A stretch of DNA of 64,000 bases from a bacterium (GTDB taxonomy: Bacteria; Actinomycetota; Acidimicrobiia; Spongiisociales; Spongiisociaceae): NCBI GenBank assembly GCA_028821265.1, contig JAPPGU010000050.1, forward strand, positions 1-64,000. Reading direction: 5' to 3'. The notes beneath the pieces were generated by a model. The model saw only the letters and a list, made by a program, of their open reading frames with translations. It made no database searches and was not told the origin of the DNA. The position numbers and the translations under genes are program-made. Shown piece after piece: positions 4,231 through 25,682 of the stretch (its first letter is position 1; every line of letters begins with the position of its first letter).

Positions 4231-5241
4231 CTATAGGGGTTTGCGAGCCAGGAAACAGTAGAGCGGTGTGAAGATCCCGGTGCTGCCACCTGCGACATAT
4301 GCGCGGGCGGTCTGATCCAGCAGCCTGACGACATCCTTGGTGCCCTTCGGGAGCACCCGCAGAGCCTCGGCTAGGCCGGCCATCCCGATGTGCGCCTTCA
4401 GGTTCTGCATCCTGATACGGGTGGCCATGGGCTGGTACCAGGGTTTCGAAGGGTGGGTCCAGTCGACGGCTCGGTCTATCCCCTCGACAAGCTCGAACCC
4501 CGCGGTTGCGAGCGCACGGTCCACCTCATCCGTCGTGGCTATGTCCTTGAGCGCGATGCCGTGCATCAGGTCCGCCTTGATGGCTCGGTGCTCGCTGTCG
4601 TGGGGGTCGAACCTGTCGGTCAGGCACATCTCCTGGCCCCAGAAGAGCGAGCCTGGCTTCAGCACGCGGTAGATCTCGGCGAACGCTCCGACCTTGTCCG
4701 GCGCATGGCATGTCGACTCGATCGCGTACGCCCTGTCGTACGTGCCGTCTGCGATGGCGCCCATGTCCATGAAGCTGGCAGCGAGGTAGTCGACCATGTG
4801 GTCTACTTCCGCCTCGGCGTTCAACGATCTCGCCTTGGCCAACTGGACCTCGCTGTAGTTGACCCCCAAGACCCTGACACCGGCCTCACGGACGACACGA
4901 CGCATCGGGCCACCGATGCCGCAGCCGACATCGACCACCGTCATGCCCTCGCGCAACTCCAGCTTGGAGATCATCAGCCGCTGATGCCGGGTCTTGGAGT
5001 CCTCGAGGCTCTCCTGAGGCGAGAGCGGAGCGAAATGCAGCGACTCGCCCCAGCCAAAGATCATCAGCTCGCTGCAGAGGTCGTAGTACTCCGTGACGGT
5101 CTTGGCATGGTCGTAGCCCTTGGCGTCCGCATCGTCCGCTGACGCTCTACCTGTCCATCCATCGAAGCGCTGCACGCGACGGGTGACGTCCGACCCGCGA
5201 TATGTGGACCTGAGCCCCTTGTAAAGCCGAAGAAGTTTCAA
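4231..5241 (-). CDS. SAM-dependent methyltransferase, sterol C-24 methyltransferase (Erg6/SMT)-like
   Basis: Colinear with Erg6: FGWGESLHFAPL, VVDVGCGIGGPMR, YAIESTCHAPDKVGAFAEIYRVLKPGS, C-terminal VAGGSTGIFTPLYCFLARKP. Confidence 0.8.
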   Translation of the reverse strand: MKLLRLYKGLRSTYRGSDVTRRVQRFDGWTGRASADDADAKGYDHAKTVTEYYDLCSELMIFGWGESLHFAPLSPQESLEDSKTRHQRLMISKLELREGMTVVDVGCGIGGPMRRVVREAGVRVLGVNYSEVQLAKARSLNAEAEVDHMVDYLAASFMDMGAIADGTYDRAYAIESTCHAPDKVGAFAEIYRVLKPGSLFWGQEMCLTDRFDPHDSEHRAIKADLMHGIALKDIATTDEVDRALATAGFELVEGIDRAVDWTHPSKPWYQPMATRIRMQNLKAHIGMAGLAEALRVLPKGTKDVVRLLDQTARAYVAGGSTGIFTPLYCFLARKPL

Positions 5242-8193: not shown

Positions 8194-9543
8194 ATGAGAA
8201 GCAAGCTACGGTATCTGTTCGTCTTCGTCCTCGCATTTTCGTTCGCTCTTGCTGCTTGTCAGACGGCTGATGAAGAACCAGCACCGGCTGAGGAAGCCGA
8301 GACGGCTGCTCCGGTTGAGGAGGCTGCTCCGGTCGAGGAGGCGGAGCCCGTTACGCTCCGCTTCATGTTCCCTGAAGGCGCTGGTCGCGGACCCGGCTTT
8401 GAATCGGCAATCGCTGCCTATCAGGAGATGAATCCTCACGTTACGATCGAGATGGAATCAGTTCCGTTCCGGGAGTATGGCGGCCTGCTGCCCGTCCAGT
8501 TCGCTGGCGATAGCCCAGCCGACGTCGCCTTGGTTGACAGCTCTGCGGTGATCTCCTACGCGTATAACGGAGCGATCGTTCCCTTGGATGGCATCTTTGA
8601 GCAATCCGATGTGGACGATTTCCTTCCCAGCCTGGTAGCTCAAGCAACTTACGAAGGCAGCATGTATGCCGGACCGTTCTTCATATCAACTCAGGGCGTG
8701 TTCTACAACGTGGATATGTTCGCGGCAGCCGGAGTCGAGCCGCCGACCACTGTGGAGGACGCTTGGACGTGGCCGGAATTCGTAGAGAATGTCTCTAAGG
8801 TAGCGGAGAGCGCACAGAGCGATGAGGGTGATGTCTGGGGGCTGGTGTTCCTGTCGAACCCTCCAGGAAGCATCTCATGGTCGCTGCCGGTAATCCGCAG
8901 CAATGGCCAGCCGGGCTCGAACACGTTCATGGCCCTCTCGCCTGACGGCACAGAAGTGTCGGGATACCTGGACACTCCTGAGGCCATGGAAGCCTATCAA
9001 TTCTGGCAGGACCTGTATGTGGAACATGGTCTTGCGCCTCAAGGTGACGTGCCGGACGCGTTCGGTAACGGACAGGCCGCGACGATGATCTCGTTCTCAG
9101 CGTGGGGCAGCGTGCTCAATAACGTGTTCCCGGACCTCAATTGGGATATCATGCCGATTCCCTATCTTGAGACACATGTCGTGCACGCCAGCCACTTCAT
9201 GCCCACGGTCGCGGCTAAGAGCGACAACCAGGATGAGGCCAAGGCCTTTGTACAGTTCCTCTCAAGCATCGAGGGCTTTATGGCTTACTATGATGTAACG
9301 AGTGATATGCCCGCACGGGTTTCCTTGCTGAACGAGCTCGAAGAGTTTCAGGTCCGTCCGCTTAGCATCTTCAAGGATGAGCTCCTCACGGTTGCCTACG
9401 CAGCACCTGGTGGTCCCGGCGGCGCGATATACGCTGAGATCGTCGGCGACTTGATGCTGGACATCGCACAGGGAGCGGATATTGAGGCAGCTGTAGACGC
9501 AGCTGTAACCGAACTCGATGCCCAGCTGGCTCAATTCGGATAG
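8194..9543 (+). CDS. ABC transporter extracellular (sugar-type, family 1) substrate-binding lipoprotein
   Basis: Lipobox-like FALAACQTADEE; SBP_bac_1-type sequence; followed by two permeases. Confidence 0.9.
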   Translation: MRSKLRYLFVFVLAFSFALAACQTADEEPAPAEEAETAAPVEEAAPVEEAEPVTLRFMFPEGAGRGPGFESAIAAYQEMNPHVTIEMESVPFREYGGLLPVQFAGDSPADVALVDSSAVISYAYNGAIVPLDGIFEQSDVDDFLPSLVAQATYEGSMYAGPFFISTQGVFYNVDMFAAAGVEPPTTVEDAWTWPEFVENVSKVAESAQSDEGDVWGLVFLSNPPGSISWSLPVIRSNGQPGSNTFMALSPDGTEVSGYLDTPEAMEAYQFWQDLYVEHGLAPQGDVPDAFGNGQAATMISFSAWGSVLNNVFPDLNWDIMPIPYLETHVVHASHFMPTVAAKSDNQDEAKAFVQFLSSIEGFMAYYDVTSDMPARVSLLNELEEFQVRPLSIFKDELLTVAYAAPGGPGGAIYAEIVGDLMLDIAQGADIEAAVDAAVTELDAQLAQFG

Positions 9544-9568
9544 TTCTAGGCCAGGTACGCGCTCTACC

Positions 9569-9606
9569 AGATTGCCGCTCTCAATTCGCTTGGAGAGCGG
9601 CAATCT
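9569..9606 (+). terminator. Intercistronic stem-loop between binding-protein gene and permease genes
   Basis: agattgccgctctc / gagagcggcaatct: perfect 14 bp stem, 10 nt loop. Confidence 0.75.
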
Positions 9607-9676
9607 TGGTTAACTCAGGTTTCGTGATCCATCTTCAGGCCCGGGAACGGCCTGGGGCGTCCCAAGGACCGACAAT

Positions 9677-10552
9677 ATGGACGTAAGGAGACCCAGTGCG
9701 CATGCGATAGAGCACTATCGTTCCGCACTCCTCTTGAGCTTGCCAGCGCTCGTTGGCCTTGCCATCTTCTGGTACTGGCCAACGATTCAAGCTGTGATTC
9801 TGGGCTTCCAGGACTACAACCTGATGTCCGGCAGCCAAGCATGGACTGGTCTCGAGAACTATCGAACCGCAGCAACCGACCCGCTGCTAGGGCTTACGTT
9901 CTTGAACACAGTGATCTACTTTCTCATGGAGGTTCCGCTACAGATGGCCCTGGCCCTCGCCCTGGCACTACTTGTACGGCGTGGTCCGGCTTGGCTCCGC
10001 ACCGTCATACTGGTCCCAACTGTGACTTCAATGGTGGTCGTGAGTGTCATATGGGGATTGATGTATCACCCCAACAGCGGGTTGATCAACAGCCTGCTGG
10101 GCGGTGTCGGTGTGCCGCCTCAGCCGTTCCTCACCAGCTCGCAACAGGCCATGCCGTCGATTGCGCTGCTCATGATCTGGAAGAACGTCGGCTTCAGCAT
10201 GCTGTTCTTCCTGGCCGGCTTGGTGAGCATCCCGCGGAACTACTATGAGGCGGCCGCGACGGACGGTGCGAACAGCCGTCAACTCTTTCGCTATATCACC
10301 CTTCCACTCCTGCGCGGTACTGTGGTGTTCTTGCTGATCACGAACACGGTAACTGCGTTCAAGGTGTTTACCCCCATCTTCTTGATCACAGAAGGAGGAC
10401 CCATCAATGCTACTCGGGTTGTTGTGCTCTACATATTTGAGAATGCGTTTCGTTTCAACAAGATGGGCTATGCCGCAGCCATATCCGTGTTACTTGCACT
10501 GTTCTTACTCGTCATAAGCGTCTACTCGCTTCGCGCGTCCAGGGCGAGGTGA
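9677..10552 (+). CDS. Carbohydrate-type ABC transporter permease (UgpA/MalF-like)
   Basis: Multi-TM; EAAATDGANSRQLFRYITLPLLRGT (EAA loop). Confidence 0.9.
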   Translation: MDVRRPSAHAIEHYRSALLLSLPALVGLAIFWYWPTIQAVILGFQDYNLMSGSQAWTGLENYRTAATDPLLGLTFLNTVIYFLMEVPLQMALALALALLVRRGPAWLRTVILVPTVTSMVVVSVIWGLMYHPNSGLINSLLGGVGVPPQPFLTSSQQAMPSIALLMIWKNVGFSMLFFLAGLVSIPRNYYEAAATDGANSRQLFRYITLPLLRGTVVFLLITNTVTAFKVFTPIFLITEGGPINATRVVVLYIFENAFRFNKMGYAAAISVLLALFLLVISVYSLRASRAR

Positions 10553-11460
10553 TCAACAATGACTCCAACCTACCGACGCTCATGTACTCGAGAATAGTAG
10601 GGCGGCGATCTGATCGCCTGACCGGCCCACGCCAGCGTAGCTGGGCCGTGCTCCGGTTGCCGGTAGTGATCGGAGTCGCTTTCTTCTTTGTCTTTCCATA
10701 CCTCTGGTTGGTGGGATCATCCTTCAGACCCCGGGAGGAGATCTTTCGTTACGTCAATCCAATCTCGTGGCGTACCTTCGTTCCGCTGGCGCCGACCCTT
10801 GACAACTTTCGCCATTTGTTCTTCGAACGCAACTTTGGTCGGGCACTGGCTAACAGCCTGGTCATCGCACTCGTCACCGTGGCTATTACGCTGTTCATCG
10901 GTAGTATGATTGCCTTCGCCCTTGCCCGGATCAAGTTTCCCGGACGCGAAGTCGTGTTCGTGTTGATCCTCGCCACGATTCTGATTCCGTTCGAGACGAT
11001 CATGGTCTCGGTGTTCTTGACGATACAGCGCCTGGGACTGTTCGATACCTATGCGGCGCTATTCTTGCCCTGGGTTACGGATGCCTTTATCATTTTCCTC
11101 CTTAGGCAGCATTTTCGAGATATCCCTGATGAGCTACAGGACGCTGCCATCGTAGATGGTTGCTCACTATTCCGGGTCTACTGGAACGTGATGTTGCCAA
11201 ACATACGGCCCGCGCTGGTCAGCGCTGCCTTTGTCAAGTTCGTGTTTTCGTGGGACGCGTTCCTCTGGCCACTTATCGTTACCCGAGACCCGGATCTGAC
11301 GGTGGTCCAGCTGGCGATCTCTCGTCTCTTTACAGACCAAAATGTCTTATGGGAGCTCATCTTCGCAGGCGCGTTCATCGGCACTGTGCCACTTATCATT
11401 CTCTTCCTGTTCTTACAGCGTTACTACGTCGAAGGGGTGGTCACCAGCGGATTCAATTGA
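10549..11460 (+). CDS. Carbohydrate-type ABC transporter permease (UgpE/MalG-like)
   Basis: Multi-TM; ELQDAAIVDGCSLFRVYWNVMLPNIRPAL (EAA loop); overlaps previous gene by 4 bp. Confidence 0.9.
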   Translation: MINNDSNLPTLMYSRIVGRRSDRLTGPRQRSWAVLRLPVVIGVAFFFVFPYLWLVGSSFRPREEIFRYVNPISWRTFVPLAPTLDNFRHLFFERNFGRALANSLVIALVTVAITLFIGSMIAFALARIKFPGREVVFVLILATILIPFETIMVSVFLTIQRLGLFDTYAALFLPWVTDAFIIFLLRQHFRDIPDELQDAAIVDGCSLFRVYWNVMLPNIRPALVSAAFVKFVFSWDAFLWPLIVTRDPDLTVVQLAISRLFTDQNVLWELIFAGAFIGTVPLIILFLFLQRYYVEGVVTSGFN

Positions 11461-11479
11461 GGTAGGCGGGCTTGCGCCC

Positions 11480-12904
11480 ATGAGGAGTACGAAGGGCACC
11501 AACATGCTTCTGATCAACAACGTGACGGCGGTGACGGTCGATGCGCAGCGGCGCATCATCACCGACGCCGCGATCGCCGTCGCGGGCGACCGCATCGCCG
11601 ATGTCGGTAAAGCGTCCGATCTGGCCCACCGCCACCCGGATGCGGAGCGACTCGACGGCCATGGAATGCTGGCCTTGCCCGGGCTGATCGATGCCCACGC
11701 TCACTCGGATCAGGCGCTGCTGCGGGGTGCCGCCGACGACCTGCCCTGGAGACCCTTTCTCCGGGAGGTCATCTGGCCGCTGCTGAATCAGCGCACCCAG
11801 GAGGATGCCCGGATCAGTCTGAAACTGTGCATGCTGGAGATGATCAAGTCCGGCACGACCTGCTTTGTCGACTCGATAGTGCCGAGCCACTATGACTTCG
11901 ACGGGCTGGCGCAGGCGGTGGTGGACATGGGGATGCGTGCCGTGCTGGCGAAGTATGTCCTGCCGGACGCCTTGTTCGAGCGCGGCGAGAGCATCGTGGA
12001 CACCGGCGGGTTCAGCGGGGAGGAGGAGTCTCTGGCCGACGCCGAGCGGGGGATCGGCGTCTGGCACGGTGCGGCTGGCGGCCGAGTGCAGGTGTGGCTA
12101 GGGCCTCTGGTGCCGCGGGAGGAGCCACCGGCCAGCGCCTCGCCGGGTTTCTACCGCAGGGTCTCCCGGCTCGCGGCGAAACATGGGACGGGGATCACCG
12201 TACATTTCGCCGGCACTATCGATGATCCTCCCTTCTTTCAGCGGGAATTCGGCATGCTCCCTGCCGAGTTCGCCCGGCGCTACGACCTTCTGGGGCCCAA
12301 CGTGCTGCTCATCAACGGCACTTGGTTCTCCGAGGAGGAGATCCCGATCCTTGCCGAAACCGATACCCGGCTGGTCCACAGCCCTTCGGCCAATATGAAG
12401 ATGGGAGAGGGCTTCGCCAAGGTACCGCAGATGCGGAGCGCCGGGGTAACGGTGGCGCTGGGCTGTGATGCGGGGGCCAACAACAATTGCCATGACATGA
12501 TCCGGGAGATGAAAGCCGCCTCACTGCTGCACAGCGTGAAGACGATGGATCCCACCACGCTGACGGCCGAGGATGCCCTGGAGATGGCGACGATCGAAGG
12601 GGCGCGTGCCATAGGGCAGGGTGACCAGTTGGGGTCGCTTGAGGCAGGGAAGCAGGCAGACGTGATCCTGGTCGACCTGCGGCGGCCGCACACGATGCCG
12701 GTCCATGATCCGATCGCCAACCTCGTGTATGCGGCGCATGGCGGCAACGTGGACACGGTGATCGTGGCGGGGCAGGTGCTGATGCGAGGTCGGCAGGTGC
12801 TCGTGGCCGACGAGGCGGCGATCCTGGCGGAGGCCCAGGAGCGGGGTCCGGCGCTGTTGGACAGGGCGGGGATCGAGGTGGCCCCGGCATGGCCCGTCGA
12901 GTGA
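11480..12904 (+). CDS. Amidohydrolase family protein (MTA/SAH deaminase / AtzB-like)
   Basis: GLIDAHAHSDQALLRG, HSPSANMKMGEG, LGCDAGANNN motifs; ATG at 11480 or 11504. Confidence 0.88.
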   Translation: MRSTKGTNMLLINNVTAVTVDAQRRIITDAAIAVAGDRIADVGKASDLAHRHPDAERLDGHGMLALPGLIDAHAHSDQALLRGAADDLPWRPFLREVIWPLLNQRTQEDARISLKLCMLEMIKSGTTCFVDSIVPSHYDFDGLAQAVVDMGMRAVLAKYVLPDALFERGESIVDTGGFSGEEESLADAERGIGVWHGAAGGRVQVWLGPLVPREEPPASASPGFYRRVSRLAAKHGTGITVHFAGTIDDPPFFQREFGMLPAEFARRYDLLGPNVLLINGTWFSEEEIPILAETDTRLVHSPSANMKMGEGFAKVPQMRSAGVTVALGCDAGANNNCHDMIREMKAASLLHSVKTMDPTTLTAEDALEMATIEGARAIGQGDQLGSLEAGKQADVILVDLRRPHTMPVHDPIANLVYAAHGGNVDTVIVAGQVLMRGRQVLVADEAAILAEAQERGPALLDRAGIEVAPAWPVE

Positions 12905-12914
12905 GGAGGAAGAC

Positions 12915-13703
12915 ATGGGAGATTATTTGACGGAGCGCTTCTTGCGGCTGCCGGACGGTTCGTTGCCGCACATGGGCGTGAAGGGCGGCGGGGACGTTGC
13001 TCCTTATGTCCTGCTCTCAGGCGACCCCGGACGCGTTGAGAAGATGAAGACCTGGCTGGACACGGCGGAGGGGGTCGGCAGGGAACGCGGCTATGTCGCT
13101 TACACCGGTTCATATCGAGGCACGCCGGTGACGCTGGCATCGACCGGGGTCGGCGCTCCATCCGTCGCGATTGCCATCGAAGAGTTGGCGTTGGCCGGGG
13201 GGAGGGTCTTCATCCGAGTCGGCAGCTGTGCGAGCATCGCAGAGAACATTCCGATCGGTGATGTGGTCATCGGCACCGCCGGCGTCCGCGATGAGGGCGT
13301 GAGCCACACCTACGCGCCCGCCATCTATCCCGCGATCGCTGATCCCGACGTGGTGGCCGCCCTCCGGGCCACCGCGGAGGCGGAAGGTACGCCTTACCAT
13401 CTGGGGCTGGTGCGAAGTACCGATTCGTTCTACGAGGGGGAGCGCAAAGTCGAGATCATCGACCAATGGCGGGACCTGCGCGTTCTCGTCTTTGAAATGG
13501 AGAGCTCGGCGCTCTTCACCGTGGCCATGGTCCGCGGCGTGCGCAGTGGCTCCATTCTCGTGCCCGGGTCCAACCTGGTAACAGGCCAGAAGAGCACCTA
13601 CCAGGGTCAGCAATTGGAGGAATACACGGCGGGGATCGACGCGGCGATCGCTACCGCCCTGGGTGCTGTCGAGCGCCTGCATGCCGCTTCCGAGCAGAGA
13701 TGA
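12915..13703 (+). CDS. Nucleoside phosphorylase (PNP/UDP family, uridine phosphorylase-like)
   Basis: LLSGDPGRVEKM, STGVGAPSVAIAIEEL, RVGSCAS, VFEMESSALFTVA. Confidence 0.9.
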   Translation: MGDYLTERFLRLPDGSLPHMGVKGGGDVAPYVLLSGDPGRVEKMKTWLDTAEGVGRERGYVAYTGSYRGTPVTLASTGVGAPSVAIAIEELALAGGRVFIRVGSCASIAENIPIGDVVIGTAGVRDEGVSHTYAPAIYPAIADPDVVAALRATAEAEGTPYHLGLVRSTDSFYEGERKVEIIDQWRDLRVLVFEMESSALFTVAMVRGVRSGSILVPGSNLVTGQKSTYQGQQLEEYTAGIDAAIATALGAVERLHAASEQR

Positions 13704-15040
13704 AGACCACTTCTTCGGTCCTGATCCGCAACGGGGTGCTCATCACGATGAACGCCGACCGCGAGATCCTGGATGGCAGCGTCTACATCGAGGATGGGCG
13801 TATCCGCGAGATCCCTTCGGCTCGGACGAGGGCCGACACGATCATCGACGCGACCGATTGCCTGGTAACGCCCGGGTTCGTCCAAACCCACGTCCATCTG
13901 TGCCAGACCCTCTTTCGCGGGATGGCGGACGATATGGACGTGATCGATTGGCTTCGTCTGCGTATCTGGCCGCTCGAGCAGGCCCACGATGAGCGATCCA
14001 TATACGACTCTGCGCGCCTGGGCATAGCCGAGTTGATTCGCGGCGGGACAACCTGCGCGCTCACGATGGAAACCGTCCGTGACACCGAAGAGGCGTTCCG
14101 GGCTGTACTCGAGACCGGCTTCCGGGCGATCAGCGGAAAGGCGATGATGGACCGCTGGGAGCCTGGAACCGAGATGGTCGGGGAGGAGACCAAGGCCTCG
14201 CTTGATGCGAGCCTCGCGCTCGTCAAGGAGTTTCATGGCAAGGGCGACGGCCGGCTGCAGGTCGCGTTCTGCCCCCGTGGTTCACGCAATTGCACCGAGG
14301 GTCTATGGGCGGACATAGTCGCGCTGGCCGGCGAACACGACACGGTCATCCACACGCACGCCGCCGAGAACGAAGCGCAGACCGAGCGTCTCGCGATCGA
14401 TAGCACGACCGATATCGAGTATCTCCACGGCCTGGGTGCGACGGGCCCGCGACTGGTCGCCGCGCACTGCATCTGGGTGACCGAACCCGAGATCGAGATA
14501 CTGGCCGAGACCGGGACCAAGGTGGCCCATTGTCCTTCGTGCAACATGAAGCTCGCCTCCGGGTTCGCCCCAGTGCCGGAGTTCCTCGAGCGAGGCATCG
14601 TCGTAGGCCTCGGCGCGGACGGTGCCCCCTGCAACAACAACCTGGACATGTTCCAGGAGATGCGTCTGGCGTCGCTCATACACAAGCCCCGGATCGGCCC
14701 CCGTGGTATGCCGGCGATGTCCGTGCTGGAGATGGCCACTCTGGGGGGAGCGAGGGCGCTTGGATTGGAGGACGAGCTTGGCTCGCTCGAGCCCGGCAAG
14801 CGGGCCGACGTCATCGTGATCCGCCGCGACGGGCTGCACGCCCAACCCCAAGCCGGTGTTGACCCGGTCGCGCAAGTGGTGTACGAGCACAGAGCGTCCG
14901 ATGTCGATAGCGTGATCATTGACGGGAAGGTTCTCGTTCGTGGGGGCGAGTTCACGGAACTCGATCCGATTGAGATCCGCGCCCGTGCGAGCGATTCTGT
15001 GGAGCGTGTTCTGGCGCGAGCCGAGCTAGCGAATGGATGA
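13700..15040 (+). CDS. Amidohydrolase family protein (MTA/SAH deaminase-like)
   Basis: PGFVQTHVHLCQTLFRGMADD, HTHAAENEAQ, HCPSCNMKLASG, LGADGAPCNNN; 4 bp overlap with preceding gene. Confidence 0.9.
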   Translation: MKTTSSVLIRNGVLITMNADREILDGSVYIEDGRIREIPSARTRADTIIDATDCLVTPGFVQTHVHLCQTLFRGMADDMDVIDWLRLRIWPLEQAHDERSIYDSARLGIAELIRGGTTCALTMETVRDTEEAFRAVLETGFRAISGKAMMDRWEPGTEMVGEETKASLDASLALVKEFHGKGDGRLQVAFCPRGSRNCTEGLWADIVALAGEHDTVIHTHAAENEAQTERLAIDSTTDIEYLHGLGATGPRLVAAHCIWVTEPEIEILAETGTKVAHCPSCNMKLASGFAPVPEFLERGIVVGLGADGAPCNNNLDMFQEMRLASLIHKPRIGPRGMPAMSVLEMATLGGARALGLEDELGSLEPGKRADVIVIRRDGLHAQPQAGVDPVAQVVYEHRASDVDSVIIDGKVLVRGGEFTELDPIEIRARASDSVERVLARAELANG

Positions 15041-15094
15041 CCCTTTGCACACAAGGATCCCAAGCTAGCCACGCAATTGATTAGGGAGGCTGTT

Positions 15095-16057
15095 GTGACT
15101 CCGACTCGAGGAACTCCATGGCTGCTCAGCGAGATTGGGTTTGCGCCAGGAGCACCCCGCAACCTGGCGCCTGACGGGGCAACAACACTTGCAGTCGTGC
15201 TGGGTTCTGGAGGAGTAACACCGAACCCGCATCGACACGGTCCCAGCGCGGCGGTCATCGTCAACGACTCGACCTACTTGATCGATGCCGGCGAAGGGAT
15301 CTGGCGCAGCCTTGCCCGGGCTGCGGTATCCCACCCTGATCTGATAGCCGAACATCTTGCCCCGTACAGGCTTACCAGGCTCTTCTTGACCCACCTGCAC
15401 TCCGACCATACGATCGGACTGCCGGCTGTGTGGCTCATGCCCTGGGCCTATGGGCGCGAGGTTCCGCTGGAGGTCTACGGCCCGGTCGGCACACGAAGCT
15501 TGATGGAGCATTTGGAAGAGGCTTATCAGGGAGATCTGCAAGAACGTAGGTTTGGCCCCGGCGCTCCGGAGAGGATGGTGGATGCGCACAAGGCGACTCC
15601 ACACGAGATCAAGGATTCAGGCAAAGTCTACGAAGATGACAATGTGAAGATCGAAGCATTTCATCATGCACATGGCAGTTTCGAACAGAACTTTGCCTAT
15701 CGTTTCACATCCCGGGATCGAGTGATTGCGTGGGCAGGAGACGGCCGGGTGGAGGGCCAGCTCGACAAGGCAGCCCAGGATGCAGATCTGTTCTTCTGTG
15801 AGCTATCCACCGAGGATATGATTGCGAACGCTAACTGGGGTGGAGAAACTGTCGAAGAGAAGGCAAGAACGATTTGGTCGTATCACATCCGGCCTAATGA
15901 GCTGGCGGAGTTTGCTACTGAAGTGAACGTCAAGCAGCTCGTGACGATGCACGAGCGAAACTATACAGACCCGTATGAACCCGACGCATTGATGAAGGAA
16001 TTCAAGCGCCACTATTCGGGTACCGTATATTCGGCACGCGACGGCGATGTGTTCTAG
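15095..16057 (+). CDS. MBL-fold hydrolase (RNase Z-like fold)
   Basis: LTHLHSDHTIGLP motif; RBS-like AGGGAGG before GTG 15095. Confidence 0.85.
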   Translation: MTPTRGTPWLLSEIGFAPGAPRNLAPDGATTLAVVLGSGGVTPNPHRHGPSAAVIVNDSTYLIDAGEGIWRSLARAAVSHPDLIAEHLAPYRLTRLFLTHLHSDHTIGLPAVWLMPWAYGREVPLEVYGPVGTRSLMEHLEEAYQGDLQERRFGPGAPERMVDAHKATPHEIKDSGKVYEDDNVKIEAFHHAHGSFEQNFAYRFTSRDRVIAWAGDGRVEGQLDKAAQDADLFFCELSTEDMIANANWGGETVEEKARTIWSYHIRPNELAEFATEVNVKQLVTMHERNYTDPYEPDALMKEFKRHYSGTVYSARDGDVF

Positions 16058-17324
16058 GTCAGCGAAAGGCGCCGGGTTGGTGTCAGTCCACGACGATGAT
16101 GCTCCCCGCCCGAAGGGGTTTCCGCTCCGAGCCGAGGGCAGGACCGGATGGTCGATCTTCGACAACGATGTCGCCTATCCGATAGCGGTGCTCCTGCGCT
16201 CCGCGCTCGACCACAACCGTGCGACTATGCGAGCGTTCTGCCTGCGGAACGGGGTGGACCTTGCTCCCCACGGCAAGACCACGATGTCTCCCGAACTGTT
16301 CCGGATGCAGATGGACGACGGGGTCTGGGCGATCACCGCCGCCACGACCTGGCAGGCCATGGTCATGCGGGATTGCGGCGTTCCCAAGGTGCTGATCGCC
16401 AATGAGGTGGTGTCCCCCGGCGAGATCGAATGGCTGGCCGGAGCCCGGAGAGACGGCTTCGACGTCACGTGCTACGTCGACTCGCTCGACGGTGTGGCCG
16501 TCTTCGACCAGGTCCTGGGCCGGCTGCAACCCGACCGGCCCTTCCCGGTCCTGGTGGAGGTTGGAGTTCCCGGAGTACGGGCGGGCGTGAGAACCACTGA
16601 GGAGGGCTTGACGGTTGCCGGCGCCGCAGCCTCCTCCGCGCATCTCTCGCTGACGGGAGTCGCCGGGTTCGAAGGCCTCCTGGGCGCCCGGGGTGACCGC
16701 AGCGCCATAAAGGTGGTCGACGCGTTCCTCGATCAGATCGTGGATCTGGCCTGCGAGGTTGCCGGGCGCGGCTGGTTCGATCCCACCGCCGAACCGATCC
16801 TCACCGCCGGCGGGAGCTCCTACTTCGACCGGGTGGTAGCACGGTTCTCCCGTGCCGACCTGGGCCGGCCCCACCGGGTGGTGATCCGCAGCGGCTGCTA
16901 CCTGACCCACGACGACGGCTGGCTGCATGGCACTTCTCCTTTGGGAGAGACAGGCAGGACCGGTTATCCCGAGCACCTGATCCCTGCCATCGAAGTGTGG
17001 GGGACGGTCCTGTCGCGGCCGGAACCGACCAGGGCGATCGTGGGCGTGGGCCGGCGCGACGTCTCGTTCGACGCAATGTTGCCGGTCGTCAAGAAGGTGC
17101 GCCGGAGGGACGGGTCGGCGGTCGCGGCGGCGCCACCGATGCGGACGGTGGCCCTCAACGACCAGCACGCCTTCATAGACGTGGAAGAAGAGACGCCGCT
17201 GGCCGTGGGCGATCTGGTGGGACTCGGTATCTCGCATCCATGCACCACCTTCGACAAGTGGAGGGCGATCCCGATCGTGGAGGGTGACTACCGGGTTGTT
17301 TCGGTGGCGCGGACCCTGTTCTGA
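16047..17324 (+). CDS. PLP-dependent D-serine/D-threonine dehydratase-like protein (DSD1 / alanine-racemase N-terminal fold)
   Basis: LAPHGKTTMSPELFRMQMDDGVWAITAATTWQA; C-terminal HAFIDVEEE...VGDLVGLGISHPCTTFDKWR. Confidence 0.85.
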   Translation: MCSRSAKGAGLVSVHDDDAPRPKGFPLRAEGRTGWSIFDNDVAYPIAVLLRSALDHNRATMRAFCLRNGVDLAPHGKTTMSPELFRMQMDDGVWAITAATTWQAMVMRDCGVPKVLIANEVVSPGEIEWLAGARRDGFDVTCYVDSLDGVAVFDQVLGRLQPDRPFPVLVEVGVPGVRAGVRTTEEGLTVAGAAASSAHLSLTGVAGFEGLLGARGDRSAIKVVDAFLDQIVDLACEVAGRGWFDPTAEPILTAGGSSYFDRVVARFSRADLGRPHRVVIRSGCYLTHDDGWLHGTSPLGETGRTGYPEHLIPAIEVWGTVLSRPEPTRAIVGVGRRDVSFDAMLPVVKKVRRRDGSAVAAAPPMRTVALNDQHAFIDVEEETPLAVGDLVGLGISHPCTTFDKWRAIPIVEGDYRVVSVARTLF

Positions 17325-17544
17325 AGCGGGAGCAGTTGCCGACCATGCGGTTGATCGAGGCGACGTGCCCTACGGGGGCGAGGACTGCGAGACTCCGGGA
17401 ATCATCCGACTGAGGAAGTTGCTATGAAGAGAACGTCGGTACCGTCCAACAGGAAGTGGTCCAAGGTCGGGTACTCGAGGGCGGTACGGGTCGGGAGCAT
17501 CATCGAGGTGGCCGGTACCTCATCAAGCGGGCCGGACGGGCAGA

Positions 17545-17784
17545 TCTGCCGGGCAATCTGTGCGTTGGAGCAGATATAGACGATGTCGATCTGCTCGATA
17601 CTGCCGGGCCCCTCCCACAGGTGGTCGAGCGCCTTAGTTATCACCCCGCGCGCCACCAGTGTCTTTCCGAGGTTCACCTCGTCGGCCACCAGGAAACGGC
17701 GGGTCGAGTCCTCCGCCTGGTAGAGCCGCTCGAATGCGTACCGACGGTGTCACGCTGGAATCCCTTGAGACCGTCGAGGACGGC
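17545..17784 (-). pseudogene. Truncated duplicate of the 5' region of the helicase gene at 19147..22377
   Basis: Near-identical to about 22090..22340 (ADEVNLGKTLVARGVITKALDHLWEGPGSIEQIDIVYICSNAQIARQ) with indels. Confidence 0.85.
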
Positions 17785-17803
17785 GGGCGACCGGAGGTTG
17801 TCG

Positions 17804-18916
17804 TCAAGGCTTGATTGAGACGATCTGGATGAGGTTGCCGCAGGTGTCGTCGAACACGGCGATCCAGGCCTCGCCGACATCGGTCGGGGGCACCGTGAAG
17901 GCGACGCCGGCCTCGGTCAGCCGCTGGTGTTCGGTTTCGACGTCGTCGACGGCGAACTGGGCCAGGGGGATGCCGGCGGCCATCAGGGCGTCGCGGTAGG
18001 GCTTGACCGCCGGGTGATGTGATGGCTCGAGCAACAACTCGGGCCCGTCGGGGTCGTCGGGCGAGACCACCGTGAGCCAGGAGTCTTGGCCAAGCGGAAT
18101 GTCGTGGCGCTTCTGGAATCCGAGCACGTCGGTGTAGAACGCCAGGGCTTCCGCCTGGTCGTGAACGAATACGCCGGTGAGTTCGATCCGGATGGCCGGG
18201 GTGCTCTGCGGCCTGCCATCACGTGCCGCCGTCGTGGGCGTGACGTCGGTGTGCTGCTTCTGTGAGACGATCTGGATGAGGTTGCCGCAGGTGTCGTCCA
18301 ACACGGCCATCCAGACCTCGCCGACATCGGTCGGGGGCACCGTGAAGGCGACGCCGGCCTCGGTCAGCCGCTGGTGTTCGGCGTCGACGTCGTCGACGGC
18401 GAACTGGGCTAGCGGGATTCCATCGTCGGCCAAGGCCTTGCGGTAGGGCGTGACGGCGGCGTGGCCGGCCGGGTCGAGCTGCAGCTGGGGCCCGTCGGGG
18501 GCGTCGGGTGAGACGACTGTCATCCAGAAGTCGTCACCGATGGGGATGTTGGAGTGTTCTTGGAACCCCAGGATGTTGGTGTAGAAGTCCATGGCCTTGA
18601 CTTGGTCATCGACGTACACACTCGCAAACGCAATCTTCACTCTTGGGCCCTTTCTCGGCCATCGCCGGCTGATCTCGGACAGCGGTGCCGGGTTGAAAAA
18701 GTGGTACTTGTAGCGGCCTTCACGTCTGTATCTGACGAGGCCGGCCTCCTCCAGGACACCGAGGTGCTGAGAGATCGCCTGGCGGGTCGAACTCAGCTGA
18801 TGCTTGGAAGCGAGCCGTGCTCCAATCTCGAACAGTGTTTGGCCATCGCGCTCGGCCAACTCGTCGAGGATGATCCGACGCGTCCGATCCGCGAGGGCCT
18901 TGTAGATGTCGGCCAC
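17804..18916 (-). CDS. ArsR-type HTH fused to two VOC (glyoxalase/bleomycin-resistance-like) domains
   Basis: ADIYKALADRTRRIILDELAERDGQTLFEIGARL...QAISQHLGVLEEAGLVRYRREGRYKYH, then two VOC repeats (MDFYTNILGFQ..., LAFYTDVLGFQ...). Confidence 0.88.
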   Translation of the reverse strand: MADIYKALADRTRRIILDELAERDGQTLFEIGARLASKHQLSSTRQAISQHLGVLEEAGLVRYRREGRYKYHFFNPAPLSEISRRWPRKGPRVKIAFASVYVDDQVKAMDFYTNILGFQEHSNIPIGDDFWMTVVSPDAPDGPQLQLDPAGHAAVTPYRKALADDGIPLAQFAVDDVDAEHQRLTEAGVAFTVPPTDVGEVWMAVLDDTCGNLIQIVSQKQHTDVTPTTAARDGRPQSTPAIRIELTGVFVHDQAEALAFYTDVLGFQKRHDIPLGQDSWLTVVSPDDPDGPELLLEPSHHPAVKPYRDALMAAGIPLAQFAVDDVETEHQRLTEAGVAFTVPPTDVGEAWIAVFDDTCGNLIQIVSIKP

Positions 18917-19146: not shown

Positions 19147-22100
19147 TTACGAGGGTCCCGTTGGCCGGGGAGACAAGTCGATGCGCAACATGGGCGCGAT
19201 CTCGTTCAGGATCTCGGGGCTGCACTGCTCGAGCAGAAACGTCATCAGATCGTCCTGTCTCGGCTGCCCGAAGACCATCCGGTAGACGGCAAGGGACCGC
19301 TTGAGCGCTTGGAGTCGGGACGCGTCCTGGCTCAGAGGGAGCGCCGGGACATGCCGCTCGATGTGCGCGCCGCCCGGGACCGGGAAGAGCCAGTAGGGGA
19401 CGAGTCCACCTTCGTTTGATGACTGTTCATGAGCGACTTCGAACAGGGCAGACCAGACGTCCGTCGACGGGCCACGGAGGACGTCGGCCCCGTGCTTTAA
19501 CGCGACGTTCTTGCGCACAGCGTGACCCTTGTAGCGGTGGACGCGGCCTTCACGCTGCTCGAGATCGACGGGGTTCGACGGAAGGTTCCAGTGCATGACG
19601 GAATGGCAGTAGGCATGGAAGTCCAGGCCTTCCTGACCGACTGATGTGGATGCGAGGACGAAGGGCCAGAAGGGAGAGTTGAAAGCCTGGCGCACCTGGC
19701 CCTCGCGCGCCCCGGCCTTGCCGTCGTCAGCCTCCTGGGCACCGAAGCGCATCGCGAAGTGGTTGCGCATGCGGTGGTGTTCGATAAGGGACGTCTCGTC
19801 GCCTGACCGGATTTCGTCCACGCGCGGAGCGCCTGTGCGGAGCGACAGCGCAGCTGACACAACCGCGGCCAGCGTGCCCCAAGCCTCCTCTTGGTCGGCT
19901 GCGAAGAGTCCTTCGAGGTCCCGTAGCGTGTGGACGTACTCATCCAGCACGGCCTGGAGGTTGCCGGCTGCGCAGTAGTCCACGACCTGCCGCCAGTAGG
20001 GCGTGTCATCTCCGGGCCGCTCGCCTCGGATGAGGTACGACGCTTCCGGCAGGTTGAACAACGTGCGGAAGCTCCAGGCGATACGGGCAGCTGCGTCGCG
20101 GGCCACGAGCGCCGCGGCCGTTCCCGGACCCGAGGCACGGGTGATTGCCCGAAGGGCGCTCGTCGCAGGGCCCGCTACGGATCGCGTGGCGAGGACCTCC
20201 GCCAGATCCGCGGGCGGCCGTCCGAGGTCCGGCGATCCGGTGACAGCCTCCTCGACTAGCCGCTTCGCCTCTCCGACATGGTCCACCCACCGGGAGCCCT
20301 CGTCATCGTCCTCCGCCGCGCCGTTCCATTGGCTTGGAAGATCCCGACGACCGAACCAATCTCTGGTCGACTCGCCGTGCCTGTCAAGATCGAGCAGGAT
20401 CGGGGCCGCCCAGTACCAGTTCTCGTCCTCGCGGGCGGTCTCGGGATACGGAGCCGTGAGGCTGGCGAGAACCGGTTCGAGTCTTACCTTCGCGCGGGCT
20501 AGGGCGTCTTCCAGGGTGGGCTCGCCCTCCGCCATCGGGACGGGATCGCCCAGCTCGACGAGGCTGGGACTCGGATACATCATCCCGAGCACCGGCATTC
20601 CCGTGAGGCGCTCGTTCGAGTACGCAAACCGCAGCAGCGGCCGCCTTCTCCTGCGCTCCTCGGGCGTGTTGCGTATCGAGTCGTCGAAACGCGGAAAGAT
20701 GCGGCGCTCCACCTCGTAGCTCACCACACTTGCGACCGCTTTGGGAACGACCTGCCAGGTGGAGAAAATCAGACGCTTGGACAGTTGCTGCCGACGGGCT
20801 GCCTTCCAGGGTCCCGACTCGGCGTAGTACGGAAGCGAAGGTGGCAGCCAGAGGAGCTTCCAGGCCTGGCCGAGCTCCACCCACTTGAGAAGGCTTCGCA
20901 AGCGCGCGTTGGCCGGGTCGAGCCCTGAGTAGGCCTCCACCTCCTCCCAGGTAAGTGATGCCCGCCCGCTGCCGGCCAGAAGCCTGGTGAGACCGTTCTC
21001 CGGAGACAGGTCCAGCCTCGCGGCCACCTCGGTCTTGAGTTTGTAGTCGTCCATGAAGCTGAGTAGGTACGGCGCTGACTTCCAGTATTCGAGGACCTGT
21101 GGCTGCCCCACTTCGCGGCCGATCTCCTGGAGCGCGAGGTAGTCCTGTACATCTTCCGCAGTGAGTTGCAGGCCCGCGCTCGGCACTTCGCACATCATCC
21201 CGTCTGATTCCGCAGATGCCCGCACCCGCTCGGTCCGCGACATCACCCGCCGGAGTTCCGTCTCGATCTCTCCCTTGATCCGTACGAGGGACTCCGTTTC
21301 GGACTCGATCCGGTACATGGCCTGCCGGTAATCGTCCAGCAGGCCGCGGAGGGCGCCGCTCTCCCCGAGGCCGGGGTCGAGAAACTCGACGGTCCGCAGG
21401 AAGTCCCGGTAATGGTCGTCCTCGGCGCTTTCGTGGTGCAGCGTGTACATCCGGTAGGGCGTCGCCGAGAGGAGTAGGAGGCGCACGTCTGAAGTCTCAT
21501 CGGAGTAGGTGAAGAGCTGCTTGGCCAGCTTTGCGGTGGCATCCTGTCCGTCCAGGAGATGCTTGAAGCGCTGGAATTCGTCGAGGATCACGAGGTCGGG
21601 CTCGAGCGCCGTGACGCAGACTTCAGCCAGCATCGAGCGCACCTTGCCGATGAACGAGATCTGCTGCGATCGATCGGCCCACGGGATTCTTGTTCGACTG
21701 TTCCGGAATCGCCTGCACAGCTCCTCATACTCTCTTCTGAGATCGTCGCCCTCCTCGGCAAGACGACGTTTGAATGCCTCTGCGAGGTCGTCGTCGATAC
21801 GCCGCCGGCGCTTGAACTCCCTCAGTTCCCAGCGGAAGTAGCCCGTGTTCTTCACGTACCCCTGGAGGAGGTTCATGGGGGCCTTGCGGCGATCCGGCCA
21901 CACGCGCTGCAGGAGGTGGTAGAGGAGGACCCGTTCCTCCCGCCTACCCATACTGCTCCTCAGATCGAACGAGGTTCCGGGTGTGAGCGCTAGGTAGTTG
22001 ACCCTGTTCTCCTTCAGGCCGTGGATCTCCTGTGGCAGCAGCCCCAACCGGGCGGCGCGGACGAACCTGCCGCTGCCGATCTGGAGCCGGCGGACGTTCT

Positions 22101-22377
22101 GCCTGGCAATCTGTGCGTTGGAGCAGATATAGACGATGTCGATCTGCTCAACGCTGTCGGGACCCTCCCACAGGTGGTCGAGCGCCTTCGCTATCACTCC
22201 CCGCGCCACCAGTGTCTTCCCGAGGCCCACCTCGTCGGCCACCAGGAAACGGCGGGTCGAGTCCTCCGCCTGGTAGAGCCGCTCGAATGCGTACTCCACG
22301 GTGTCGCGCTGGAAGCCCTTGAGGCCGTCGAGGACGGCATTGGTGTCGGGGCGTTCGCCCGCTCTCCGCTGGCTCAT
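19147..22377 (-). CDS. SNF2/DEAD-like superfamily 2 helicase
   Basis: Walker A ADEVGLGKTLVARG, Walker B VILDEFQRF, LLLSATPYRM, motif VI-like DLEQREGRVHRYKGH; ATG at 22377 overlaps PLD stop. Confidence 0.9.
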   Translation of the reverse strand: MSQRRAGERPDTNAVLDGLKGFQRDTVEYAFERLYQAEDSTRRFLVADEVGLGKTLVARGVIAKALDHLWEGPDSVEQIDIVYICSNAQIARQNVRRLQIGSGRFVRAARLGLLPQEIHGLKENRVNYLALTPGTSFDLRSSMGRREERVLLYHLLQRVWPDRRKAPMNLLQGYVKNTGYFRWELREFKRRRRIDDDLAEAFKRRLAEEGDDLRREYEELCRRFRNSRTRIPWADRSQQISFIGKVRSMLAEVCVTALEPDLVILDEFQRFKHLLDGQDATAKLAKQLFTYSDETSDVRLLLLSATPYRMYTLHHESAEDDHYRDFLRTVEFLDPGLGESGALRGLLDDYRQAMYRIESETESLVRIKGEIETELRRVMSRTERVRASAESDGMMCEVPSAGLQLTAEDVQDYLALQEIGREVGQPQVLEYWKSAPYLLSFMDDYKLKTEVAARLDLSPENGLTRLLAGSGRASLTWEEVEAYSGLDPANARLRSLLKWVELGQAWKLLWLPPSLPYYAESGPWKAARRQQLSKRLIFSTWQVVPKAVASVVSYEVERRIFPRFDDSIRNTPEERRRRRPLLRFAYSNERLTGMPVLGMMYPSPSLVELGDPVPMAEGEPTLEDALARAKVRLEPVLASLTAPYPETAREDENWYWAAPILLDLDRHGESTRDWFGRRDLPSQWNGAAEDDDEGSRWVDHVGEAKRLVEEAVTGSPDLGRPPADLAEVLATRSVAGPATSALRAITRASGPGTAAALVARDAAARIAWSFRTLFNLPEASYLIRGERPGDDTPYWRQVVDYCAAGNLQAVLDEYVHTLRDLEGLFAADQEEAWGTLAAVVSAALSLRTGAPRVDEIRSGDETSLIEHHRMRNHFAMRFGAQEADDGKAGAREGQVRQAFNSPFWPFVLASTSVGQEGLDFHAYCHSVMHWNLPSNPVDLEQREGRVHRYKGHAVRKNVALKHGADVLRGPSTDVWSALFEVAHEQSSNEGGLVPYWLFPVPGGAHIERHVPALPLSQDASRLQALKRSLAVYRMVFGQPRQDDLMTFLLEQCSPEILNEIAPMLRIDLSPRPTGPS

Positions 22378-24254
22378 GACCTGAGCGCTTCCCGCGCCGC
22401 CCAAACCGGTTCCCATATCTCGATCAGGCCTTCCGGCAGGAGTTCTTTCCCCTCCGGAGTCCTCTTGAGGTCGGAGATGAGCCGGGCAACGTCGTCGATC
22501 TGTGTCGGGTTCCGGCTCAGAGTCCGGAGGAGCGCCTCCAGCAGGGTCCCACGGTGCCAACCCCCGAAGGGTCCCTGCGCAGTCATGCCGTCGCGGCGCT
22601 CTGCCTGCAGGATGGTCAATACATCGGCGCCCTCACCCATCAGAATGAGGAACAGGAGTTGGAGCACACGACGGCGATCCCGAAGGAGTGAGCGCAGCAG
22701 CCGCTCCTTACGGTTCTCTGGTGCGCCGACCAGCTCCGCCGTGACCGCGAACCGTCTACGGACGTCGCACTGTCCTTCCCGTAGCAACACCTCGAACGAG
22801 AAGAAAGCGGTCAGCGCTTCGAAGGACACCCGTTTGAATGTCGCGATCGTGTCCGCAGGGCCATCGATCCGCGCAGCCGCCTCGGGCGGAAGCGTCGCGG
22901 GCCACACCTTGACCTTTGCGCCGCCGGGGATCCTCGGGAGTTCTCCCGACAAGGTGACATCCCACAACCGTTCAGCGTCCACATGCTGCACCTTCGCCTT
23001 GAAAGGTACGGTCGCCAGGAGCCGCACGATCTGGTCGGCCTGCCTTTCCAACTCCCTACATGGCTCCGGTTCGGGACACTCAGGCGGCGGTTCGGGGTGG
23101 TACTCGTGCAGGAGAGATCGGAGGGTCTCAAGCTTCGGATCTTCCTTGAGTCCGAGGAGGGCGTCGATGCCACAGTCCTTCGTTTTTCCGACCAGTTCGA
23201 CAAGAACCTCGACGTTGGCGTGGAAGGCAGCTCCGGTCGCGTTGGCCGAGCCCGTGAACAGCCGCGTCTCAGGGCCGTTCTCGAACAGGAACAGCTTGGC
23301 GTGGAGGCCCGAGAGTTCGATCGCGTCTTCAGAGAGCGGCGGGCCGTCCGGCTGCTCCTCCCCCTCCTCCTCTGCGTGACGGGCGTCGAGGCCGGCTCCT
23401 GGCGAGAGCACGTAACACGTTCGAGGCAGGGCCTCGCGCCCTACCCGGCGGACGACATCCGCCAACGCCTCCGGTCGGGAGATGAGGACTTCGAGCCCGT
23501 GCTCACGCAAGAGGCTCTGGACAGTTAGACCGGCGAGGAATGGCGAGATCACCAAGCTCCGTCCTCCCTTACGGAAGGGCCACCGATTGCTTCCGTCTAG
23601 GCCGAGATTGTGGATCTTGAATCTGGCGAAGGGGTGAGGCGGTTTGAAGTTCACCCTCCTCACATCTCGCGCCATTCGCTCGATGTCCTCGCGAAGCTCA
23701 TCCCTGATCGGTTGACGGATAGCGAGCCTCGGGAGCGCCAAGAGTAAATCCGCGAGGGGATCGTTCCTCGGGTAATCGCCTTCCTCCATGAGAACTCCCT
23801 CAAGACGGAGGCAGGTGTCCCAGGCCCGAGCGAACGTGAGGTTGCGGGATAGACACAGCACCCGGTAGATATCCGGCCGCGCCTCGGATTCGAAGTTGAG
23901 CACCCAGACCTTCGGGTGGAAGATCCCTCCATCCTCCTCGGGCTTCACCTCGATCACTGAGCCTTCGAGGTAGGCCAGGAGGGTCTGGTCGGGGTTCGGC
24001 ACATCAATCGCACCGGCCTGGCAGAAGAGCGTCACATTCTCGGCATGCCGCCGGAGCGCCTCGAGCAGCGCCACCGGGTCGGCCAGGGGTGCCCCATCCT
24101 CGTCGTGGGCGTCGAAGAAAGTGAAGGCGAGTGGTGCCGTCAGCAGCGCCATTAGGTCGAGCGTGAAGCTGGTCCCTACGGCGCGCCGCAACCGGTAGCC
24201 GGGGGGCGGGCGGAGGTTATCCAGTAAGAGCGTTCGCTCACGCGTTCCCAGCAT
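22374..24254 (-). CDS. Phospholipase D-like (HKD) nuclease family protein
   Basis: Two HKD-like segments: FHPKVWVLNFESEARPDIYRVLCLSRNLTF and LHAKLFLFENGPETRLFTGSANATGAAF. Confidence 0.85.
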   Translation of the reverse strand: MLGTRERTLLLDNLRPPPGYRLRRAVGTSFTLDLMALLTAPLAFTFFDAHDEDGAPLADPVALLEALRRHAENVTLFCQAGAIDVPNPDQTLLAYLEGSVIEVKPEEDGGIFHPKVWVLNFESEARPDIYRVLCLSRNLTFARAWDTCLRLEGVLMEEGDYPRNDPLADLLLALPRLAIRQPIRDELREDIERMARDVRRVNFKPPHPFARFKIHNLGLDGSNRWPFRKGGRSLVISPFLAGLTVQSLLREHGLEVLISRPEALADVVRRVGREALPRTCYVLSPGAGLDARHAEEEGEEQPDGPPLSEDAIELSGLHAKLFLFENGPETRLFTGSANATGAAFHANVEVLVELVGKTKDCGIDALLGLKEDPKLETLRSLLHEYHPEPPPECPEPEPCRELERQADQIVRLLATVPFKAKVQHVDAERLWDVTLSGELPRIPGGAKVKVWPATLPPEAAARIDGPADTIATFKRVSFEALTAFFSFEVLLREGQCDVRRRFAVTAELVGAPENRKERLLRSLLRDRRRVLQLLFLILMGEGADVLTILQAERRDGMTAQGPFGGWHRGTLLEALLRTLSRNPTQIDDVARLISDLKRTPEGKELLPEGLIEIWEPVWAAREALRS

Positions 24255-25476
24255 CGCCCTCGCCCTGTGCCAGCCCGTCGAAGATGTCCGTGAGGATCCG
24301 CTTGGCTGCTCCCCACCGGTAGGCCATCCGGCCCGTCCCTGAGTCCCCGCCCCACAGTTCAAGCCGTCGGGCACTTGTCAACCGGGCACGGGCACGCTTG
24401 AGCTGAACCTCGCGGTCCCGCACAAGGGTTCGCGCTTTGGAGGCATCGGCTACGACGGCCCTGGGTCCAACCCGCTTCAGCTCTTCGATCCAACTTTCGG
24501 CGAAGGCTTGGGTCGGGAAGCCGAGGGACCGGCCCGAGGACCTCACGACCCGCCACACCCCGTCCGGTTTCCAATCCCATCCAGCCGGCTTGAGTGCGTC
24601 AACGTCGTCGGCCCAGCCCTCGAGCCTGCTCCTGTATTCCTCCGTCCACTCGGCATGCTCCCGAAGTTCGGAGAGCATGAGGTTGTAGAGAAGGGCCGCC
24701 CCTTGCATGCAGACGGCGAACAACTCCGCGTCGTATAGCTGCTCCCGGAGTACGGGCGTCACCTCGCTGAGTTGTGAGAGCTGCCACGGTCGATCGGCCT
24801 GGAGGTCCGCTGGATCGGCCCGGCCTGCGAGCGCGGCGAAGAGGCTCTCGGGATGCCTGGCCTGGATTCGGTCCCGTAGGTAGTCGGCGTCTTTGTGGCG
24901 GAGAGCAACCGAGACGTTCTCGTATGGGAACCCGGACGGAGGGTCCGGAACGTGAGGGTGCCAGTTCGCGGGAGGCGCGCTCCTGCCCTCCGTATCATGT
25001 GGCACGCTCCGGAACCGGTGGCCGCGTCGGTAGAAGCCGTCGAGCGATCGGAAATACGCCCACTTATGACCCGAGAAGGTGCAGATTCCCCAACTTCCGA
25101 GCCCACCCCAGTAGACCTCGCTTGGAAGCCGCTTCAGCGCATCGCCTGCTTGGGAACCGAACACACCCAGTGTGTCGTCCCCGCCCAGCATTCGTCTGGA
25201 CAGGTTGAGTTCCGCCCGCCGAGCCCTCGCTGCGACTTTGCTTGATGAGGTCCGCAGGCGTTCGAGCCGAAGGAACGTCCACGGTACGAGGAGGAAGTAG
25301 CACGCCCGGGTCTGGACCGTGCTGGTCCCGGGGAAAAAGAGATCCGAAAAGCTGTTGCGGACGGTTGCCATCCCGAGTTCGTCGACCGTGCTGGTCTCCC
25401 GAAACAGGTCGATGACGTCAAGAGCACGACGCCGGTCCCTCTCCGAGTAGTCGAGCCAGGTGAGGGAGGACGTCAT
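24238..25476 (-). CDS. DUF6361 family protein
   Basis: N-terminus TWLDYSERDRRRALDVIDLFRETSTVDELGMATVRNSFSDLFFPGTSTVQTRACYFLLVPW, recognised as the DUF6361 pattern. Confidence 0.75.
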   Translation of the reverse strand: MTSSLTWLDYSERDRRRALDVIDLFRETSTVDELGMATVRNSFSDLFFPGTSTVQTRACYFLLVPWTFLRLERLRTSSSKVAARARRAELNLSRRMLGGDDTLGVFGSQAGDALKRLPSEVYWGGLGSWGICTFSGHKWAYFRSLDGFYRRGHRFRSVPHDTEGRSAPPANWHPHVPDPPSGFPYENVSVALRHKDADYLRDRIQARHPESLFAALAGRADPADLQADRPWQLSQLSEVTPVLREQLYDAELFAVCMQGAALLYNLMLSELREHAEWTEEYRSRLEGWADDVDALKPAGWDWKPDGVWRVVRSSGRSLGFPTQAFAESWIEELKRVGPRAVVADASKARTLVRDREVQLKRARARLTSARRLELWGGDSGTGRMAYRWGAAKRILTDIFDGLAQGEGDAGNA

Positions 25477-25597
25477 CTCGCCACGCTATTCGTGTGCTTT
25501 CCTTCACCCAAACTCAACTGTCCGTGTCGATGCAGGGTGAGTGCGGAGCACCCCTAGCGGGCCGAACCGTGCGTCCGTAGTCGAGAAGCTAACCCGG

Positions 25598-25682
25598 TGC
25601 CCGGGGTGGGATTCGAACCCACACGCCCCTGAGGGGCAGCGGAGTTTAAGTCCGCCACGTCTACCGATTCCGTCACCCGGGC
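25598..25682 (-). tRNA. tRNA-Leu (anticodon UAA)
   Basis: GCCCGGG acceptor, anticodon arm GCGGA-CTTAAAC-TCCGC, variable arm, T arm GGGTTCGAATCCC; CCA not encoded. Confidence 0.95.

Follow-up and report, generated by a model that had tools for sequence, protein, structure and literature searches.

Identity and organization of the operon

The locus considered here lies in a 64,000-nucleotide stretch of DNA (hereafter the window) and raises the question of whether three coupled genes, which encode a DUF6361 protein, a PLD-type protein and an SNF2-like helicase, constitute a new defence system or one that already has a name. The genes and the tRNA gene directly upstream of them are as follows:

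zacA: 25476-24238, minus strand, DUF6361 protein, 412 aa, ATG start
zacB: 24254-22374, minus strand, PLD-superfamily phosphodiesterase, 626 aa, ATG start
zacC: 22377-19147, minus strand, SF2/SNF2-type helicase, 1076 aa
tRNA-Leu (TAA): 25596-25682, minus strand, directly upstream of zacA

The gene coordinates (25476-19147) agree with the arrangement described in an earlier note on this DNA, in which three same-strand genes overlap by 17 bp (zacA/zacB) and by 4 bp (ATGA, zacB/zacC). A helicase open reading frame starting with TTG at 22560 was rejected as a mechanical extension, as alignment with relatives favours the ATGA start. No sigma-70 promoter was found for the operon, and terminator-like sites were at chance level.

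All three proteins are matched over their full length by the PADLOC models for Azaca: ZacA by PDLC03828 (401 bits, residues 1-403), ZacB by PDLC03829 (547 bits, residues 1-623) and ZacC by PDLC03830 (1154 bits, residues 11-1070), and their genes are adjacent, on the same strand and in the order A-B-C. Judged from its sequence, the locus is, with a probability of about 0.97, an Azaca (zacABC) anti-phage operon that is complete and seems intact, next to tRNA-Leu in an Acidimicrobiia-like actinobacterium. Because the matches run from end to end, the system is a known and named one rather than a new one. That the operon is an unnamed new system, merely akin to known helicase-PLD systems, is scarcely credible: NCBIfam has no model above its cut-off for ZacA, ZacB or ZacC and DUF6361 is not mentioned in the literature searched, but end-to-end matches to three Azaca models at 401-1154 bits refute this reading.

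A passage of PMC10952713, citing Millman et al. (2022), gives Azaca a PLD-like domain. ZacC is known as the helicase of Azaca (PMC12278908; PMC10925250) and is placed in SF2_SNF2 (PMC10925250), while Azaca is counted among the systems of unknown mechanism that are enriched in Actinobacteria (PMC10482375); no mechanism of Azaca or DUF6361 was found in the literature searched. What the earlier note had put forward as a coupled helicase-PLD-DUF6361 defence operon is thus Azaca according to PADLOC, and its description of the system as uncharacterised has to be given up, since all three proteins match Azaca models and Azaca is named in PMC10952713, PMC12278908 and PMC10482375. The same note had held that a match to a characterised system would count against its proposal; such a match exists for the name (PADLOC Azaca) but not for a mechanism. 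To the known name, the present analysis adds the fold class of ZacA, the Tdp1/PLD3 likeness of ZacB, the tRNA-Leu setting, a zacC fossil and relatives in other phyla.

Predicted properties of ZacA, ZacB and ZacC

ZacA belongs to Pfam family PF19888 (DUF6361; 225 bits, residues 3-400). AlphaFold2, run on alignments of the locus proteins, models it entirely as helices (pLDDT 86.9, pTM 0.85), with the N-terminal 28 residues poorly modelled. Foldseek returned nothing for this model at E<=0.001 in the PDB (best 0.93) or BFVD (best 1.5), and no credible match came from searching PDB sequences with a profile. ZacA is predicted to be an all-helical structural orphan relative to solved (PDB) and viral (BFVD) structures.

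ZacB contains the two half-sites that had been noted as HKD-like motifs, in the form HxK...N: H113/K115/N138 and H318/K320/N338. These six residues are essentially invariant among 61 ZacB sequences. The aspartate of a canonical HKD motif, by contrast, does not appear in any near-invariant column, and the ZacB motif is accordingly HxK...N, as it is in Tdp1. Although the Pfam PLDc_2 score of 19.9 bits is below the cut-off of 27, the predicted fold (pLDDT 86.6, pTM 0.89) confirms membership of the PLD superfamily. The best Foldseek matches are Tdp1 and PLD3 (E 6.6e-7, TM 0.46 by target length), with which ZacB shares the bilobed, single-chain, two-motif PLD fold as well as HxK...N; the resemblance covers the first ~440 residues, identity is only ~12%, and ZacB has ~190 extra C-terminal residues in a region that is beta-rich plus helical. 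SauUSI, NucT and NgoAVII follow with weaker matches to their nuclease domains. Like Tdp1, ZacB could act on RNA or protein-DNA adducts instead of cutting DNA.

ZacC matches PF00270 (DEAD) and PF00271 (Helicase_C), both above cut-off, and carries the motifs DEVGLGKT, DEFQRF, SATP, STSVGQEGLD and QREGRVHR, in line with the Walker A/B and motif VI-like segments recognized previously. Among 58 ZacC sequences, hardly any variation is seen in Walker A, DEFQRF, SATP, motif V and QREGRxxR. An insert of ~330 residues (about 560-880), itself with invariant residues, separates the beginning of RecA2 from motifs V/VI. A profile search of solved structures reaches only RapA, over motif V/VI. In alignments of 58-76 sequences, ZacB and ZacC of the window keep all near-invariant catalytic residues.

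Comparison with other helicase-nuclease systems

As a representative of Azaca, the window copy has all three proteins in full length, including the PLD-like domain and the SNF2 helicase. Within Azaca it stands out only in detail: it lies next to tRNA-Leu, has no defence neighbours among the genes tested, and belongs to a clade with MAGs from several phyla.

DISARM (drmA/B/C/D, drmMI/II) likewise combines a helicase with a PLD protein, and the RecA2 motifs of ZacC resemble those of DrmD/DrmA (38-47 bits over ~60-70 residues). Over its length, however, ZacC is of another family, the best DrmC match of ZacB reaches only E 0.014 (12 bits), and the operon has neither DrmB nor a methyltransferase; no methyltransferase was detected among its three genes with Pfam, PADLOC or NCBIfam. 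A gene with a methyltransferase domain at 4231-5241, 14 kb away, looks like that of a sterol or small-molecule enzyme. Membership of DISARM, which takes the DrmA/DrmB/DrmC core and a methyltransferase, was rejected. Mokosh also has a helicase and a PLD-like domain, but Mokosh helicases are of the SF1 Upf1 type (PMC10925250) whereas ZacC is of the SNF2 type, and no Mko (MkoA/MkoC) model is among the 25 best matches of ZacC, so that Mokosh was rejected as well. The earlier claims that the operon is without DUF1998 (DrmB) and a methyltransferase and that it is distinct from DISARM and Mokosh, whose PADLOC models do not fit, both hold. Hachiman (HamAB) shares, by analogy only, the logic of a helicase sensor and a nuclease effector; HamB is Ski2-like whereas Azaca has an SNF2 helicase and a third protein, and no HamA/HamB model appears among the matches listed, which speaks against membership.

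Co-occurrence, distribution and flanking genes

GTDB species genomes were scanned with a ZacA alignment, 80 loci were kept, and gene order was tested in the 55 loci with at least 5.3 kb of sequence downstream of zacA. Of these 55, 47 have the intact order zacA-B-C; the remaining eight have a zacB and/or zacC that is truncated, split or otherwise broken. The overlap between zacB and zacC is 4 bp in 34 of the 47 intact loci, and overlaps between zacA and zacB are mostly 17, 14 or 8 bp. Pairwise identities of ZacA, ZacB and ZacC correlate with one another (Spearman 0.73-0.88; 0 of 500 permutations as high). The three-gene pattern is recurrent far beyond chance, and the three families do co-occur elsewhere. 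The earlier description of the system as self-contained is right for these three genes.

Within the phylum, DUF6361 is present in 8 of 398 genomes. Strong ZacC matches are found in seven of the 398, five of which are DUF6361-positive; in the other two, the contig also carries a ZacB match. Azaca loci also come from archaea (Methanotrichaceae) and cyanobacteria. In the ZacC tree, the window groups with full support in a 13-row clade (74-92% identity) whose members come from Actinomycetota, Acidobacteriota, Gemmatimonadota, Bacteroidota and Pseudomonadota. As the closest relatives belong to at least five phyla, horizontal transfer of the operon is likely; nearly all clade members are MAGs, so that some may be mis-binned, and one member (L023) is on a 5.1-Mb contig. 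Such close relatives in MAGs from several phyla suggest a sharing of defence genes among organisms of the same habitat; judging by project names, we take the clade members to be mostly sponge-associated.

One Acidimicrobiia MAG (G414) has two Azaca operons (L011 and L015) on different contigs, whose ZacC proteins are 92% and 79% identical to that of the window. In the nearest relative, L011, whose ZacA shares 99% identity with that of the window, an in-frame deletion in zacB (L011:11223-13031) removes the second HxK...N, possibly a naturally disabled nuclease; by this loss, some copies may be decaying. In a Desulfobacterium locus, zacB (L051:11238-14210) forms an open reading frame of ~990 aa: a large insertion keeps the frame, which then breaks.

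No defence genes were found among the ten genes tested downstream of the window operon. In flanks of relatives, eight of nine long open reading frames, picked for their length and counted without a control, match defence families (DrmA, type I restriction, HmaB, Mokosh/Hhe-like and HKD+Snf2), and an uncontrolled scan of 101 further flanking frames yielded type I specificity subunits, REase_I, DrmA, DrmB, PD-T7-1, AbiEii and a type II methyltransferase. There is no universally conserved fourth gene, the commonest flanking family being present in 8 of 75 loci. Two kinds of helicase gene were observed on the same strand upstream of zacA, the first of them (1050-1250 aa) just upstream in loci of different phyla and the second (1555-1799 aa) at a distance of 11-50 bp:

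L030:6264-9995, UvrD/GajB-like SF1 helicase, gap to zacA -4 bp
L073:3171-6437, UvrD/GajB-like SF1 helicase, gap to zacA -4 bp
L084:6852-10001, UvrD/GajB-like SF1 helicase, gap to zacA -1 bp
L031:2461-5655, UvrD/GajB-like SF1 helicase, gap to zacA 118 bp
L066:236-805, UvrD/GajB-like SF1 helicase, partial
L026:70-4734, DruE-like giant helicase (Clostridiales)
L029:3065-8362, DruE-like giant helicase (Anaerolineae)
L053:2468-7864, DruE-like giant helicase (Methanotrichaceae)

The UvrD/GajB-like helicase and zacABC may possibly represent a recurrent four-gene form; the window operon is without such an upstream helicase.

Proposed mechanisms

A key question is how the three proteins would act together. 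We propose that ZacC, as an SNF2-type DNA translocase, may load on or track along invading DNA and detect a foreign or abnormal state of that DNA, and that its ATPase would then license cutting of the invading DNA by ZacB, a Tdp1/PLD3-type phosphodiesterase with two motifs in a single chain. ZacA might bridge or gate ZacC and ZacB as an adaptor or a sensor. As a whole, this scheme, in which ZacC senses, ZacB cuts and ZacA couples, has in our estimate an even chance of being correct. It builds on what the sequences show, namely the identity of the genes, their conserved order and coupling, the intact catalytic residues, the fold class of ZacB and the defence neighbours of relatives; that the proteins form a complex, what the substrate is, the sequence of steps and the part played by ZacA are inferred. 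Because the module has no methyltransferase, discrimination by the state or the ends of DNA is more likely than discrimination by modification.

The absence of a methyltransferase or any other self-marking gene, which requires that discrimination come from sensing a state, also suits abortive infection, in which ZacC would sense infection and ZacB would attack host DNA or RNA, so that the cell is killed or arrested. The precedent of Hachiman, a helicase and nuclease that senses genome integrity and whose helicase restrains the nuclease until DNA damage is sensed (PMC12278908), points the same way. The sequence, however, fits direct targeting equally well, and PMC10482375 lists Azaca without a known mechanism; we consider abortive infection a serious candidate that falls somewhat short of probable. 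Housekeeping DNA repair, with a Tdp1-like enzyme clearing DNA adducts and a translocase assisting it, accords with the resemblance of ZacB to a repair enzyme and with RapA as the best solved relative of ZacC (motif V/VI only), but is very improbable in view of the patchy distribution of DUF6361 (8/398 genomes), the likely transfer across phyla, the tRNA-adjacent insertion with a fossil copy (see below) and the defence neighbours in relatives.

For direct targeting by ZacC, ZacB and ZacA, a more specific version is speculative and rather unlikely: a DNA-end-processing immune complex in which the SNF2 translocase would bring the Tdp1/PLD3-type phosphodiesterase to phage DNA ends and DUF6361 would gate it, with an upstream UvrD-like or DruE-like helicase added in some lineages (the four-gene form). 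Three features of the models lend themselves to testing: the bilobed active site of ZacB, which resembles that of Tdp1 (H113/K115/N138 with H318/K320/N338), the SNF2 motor and its conserved insert, and the DUF6361 protein, which has no known fold.

The tRNA-Leu site

A distance of 119 bp separates tRNA-Leu(TAA) from the operon downstream of it; the tRNA gene is itself preceded by DUF501, divIC and enolase genes. Three congeners resemble the window along the tRNA side as far as 25591-25597, where the resemblance stops at the 3' end of the tRNA. One of these, G421, lacks ZacC and has a gene for a tyrosine integrase adjoining the tRNA; on another contig it carries, at 94-96% identity, the block 8194-18615, which includes the following feature:

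zacC 5'-region fossil: 17545-17784, minus strand, ~93% identical to 22098-22338

The fossil is present in two congeners, of which one is G421, without an intact ZacC. The simplest reading of these comparisons, which are bounded by contig ends, is an integration hotspot from which an older Azaca copy appears to have been lost and where a newer one is present. In the congener G401, Azaca is on another contig, and its likeness to the window (77%) is limited to 19163-25476; the operon thus behaves as a unit.

No direct repeat of the tRNA 3' end that would mark an integration was found in the 64,000-nt window, no integrase or second defence gene among the tested genes at 2.6-17.3 kb, and no RNA family other than the tRNA at 15-30 kb. 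Outside the window's own genus, no locus has a tRNA within 900 bp of Azaca, and adjacency to a tRNA was rejected as a general rule. At 17804-18916, an ArsR-type regulator is joined in one frame to two tandem glyoxalase-like domains, which arose by a recent internal duplication (82% DNA similarity over 300 bp).
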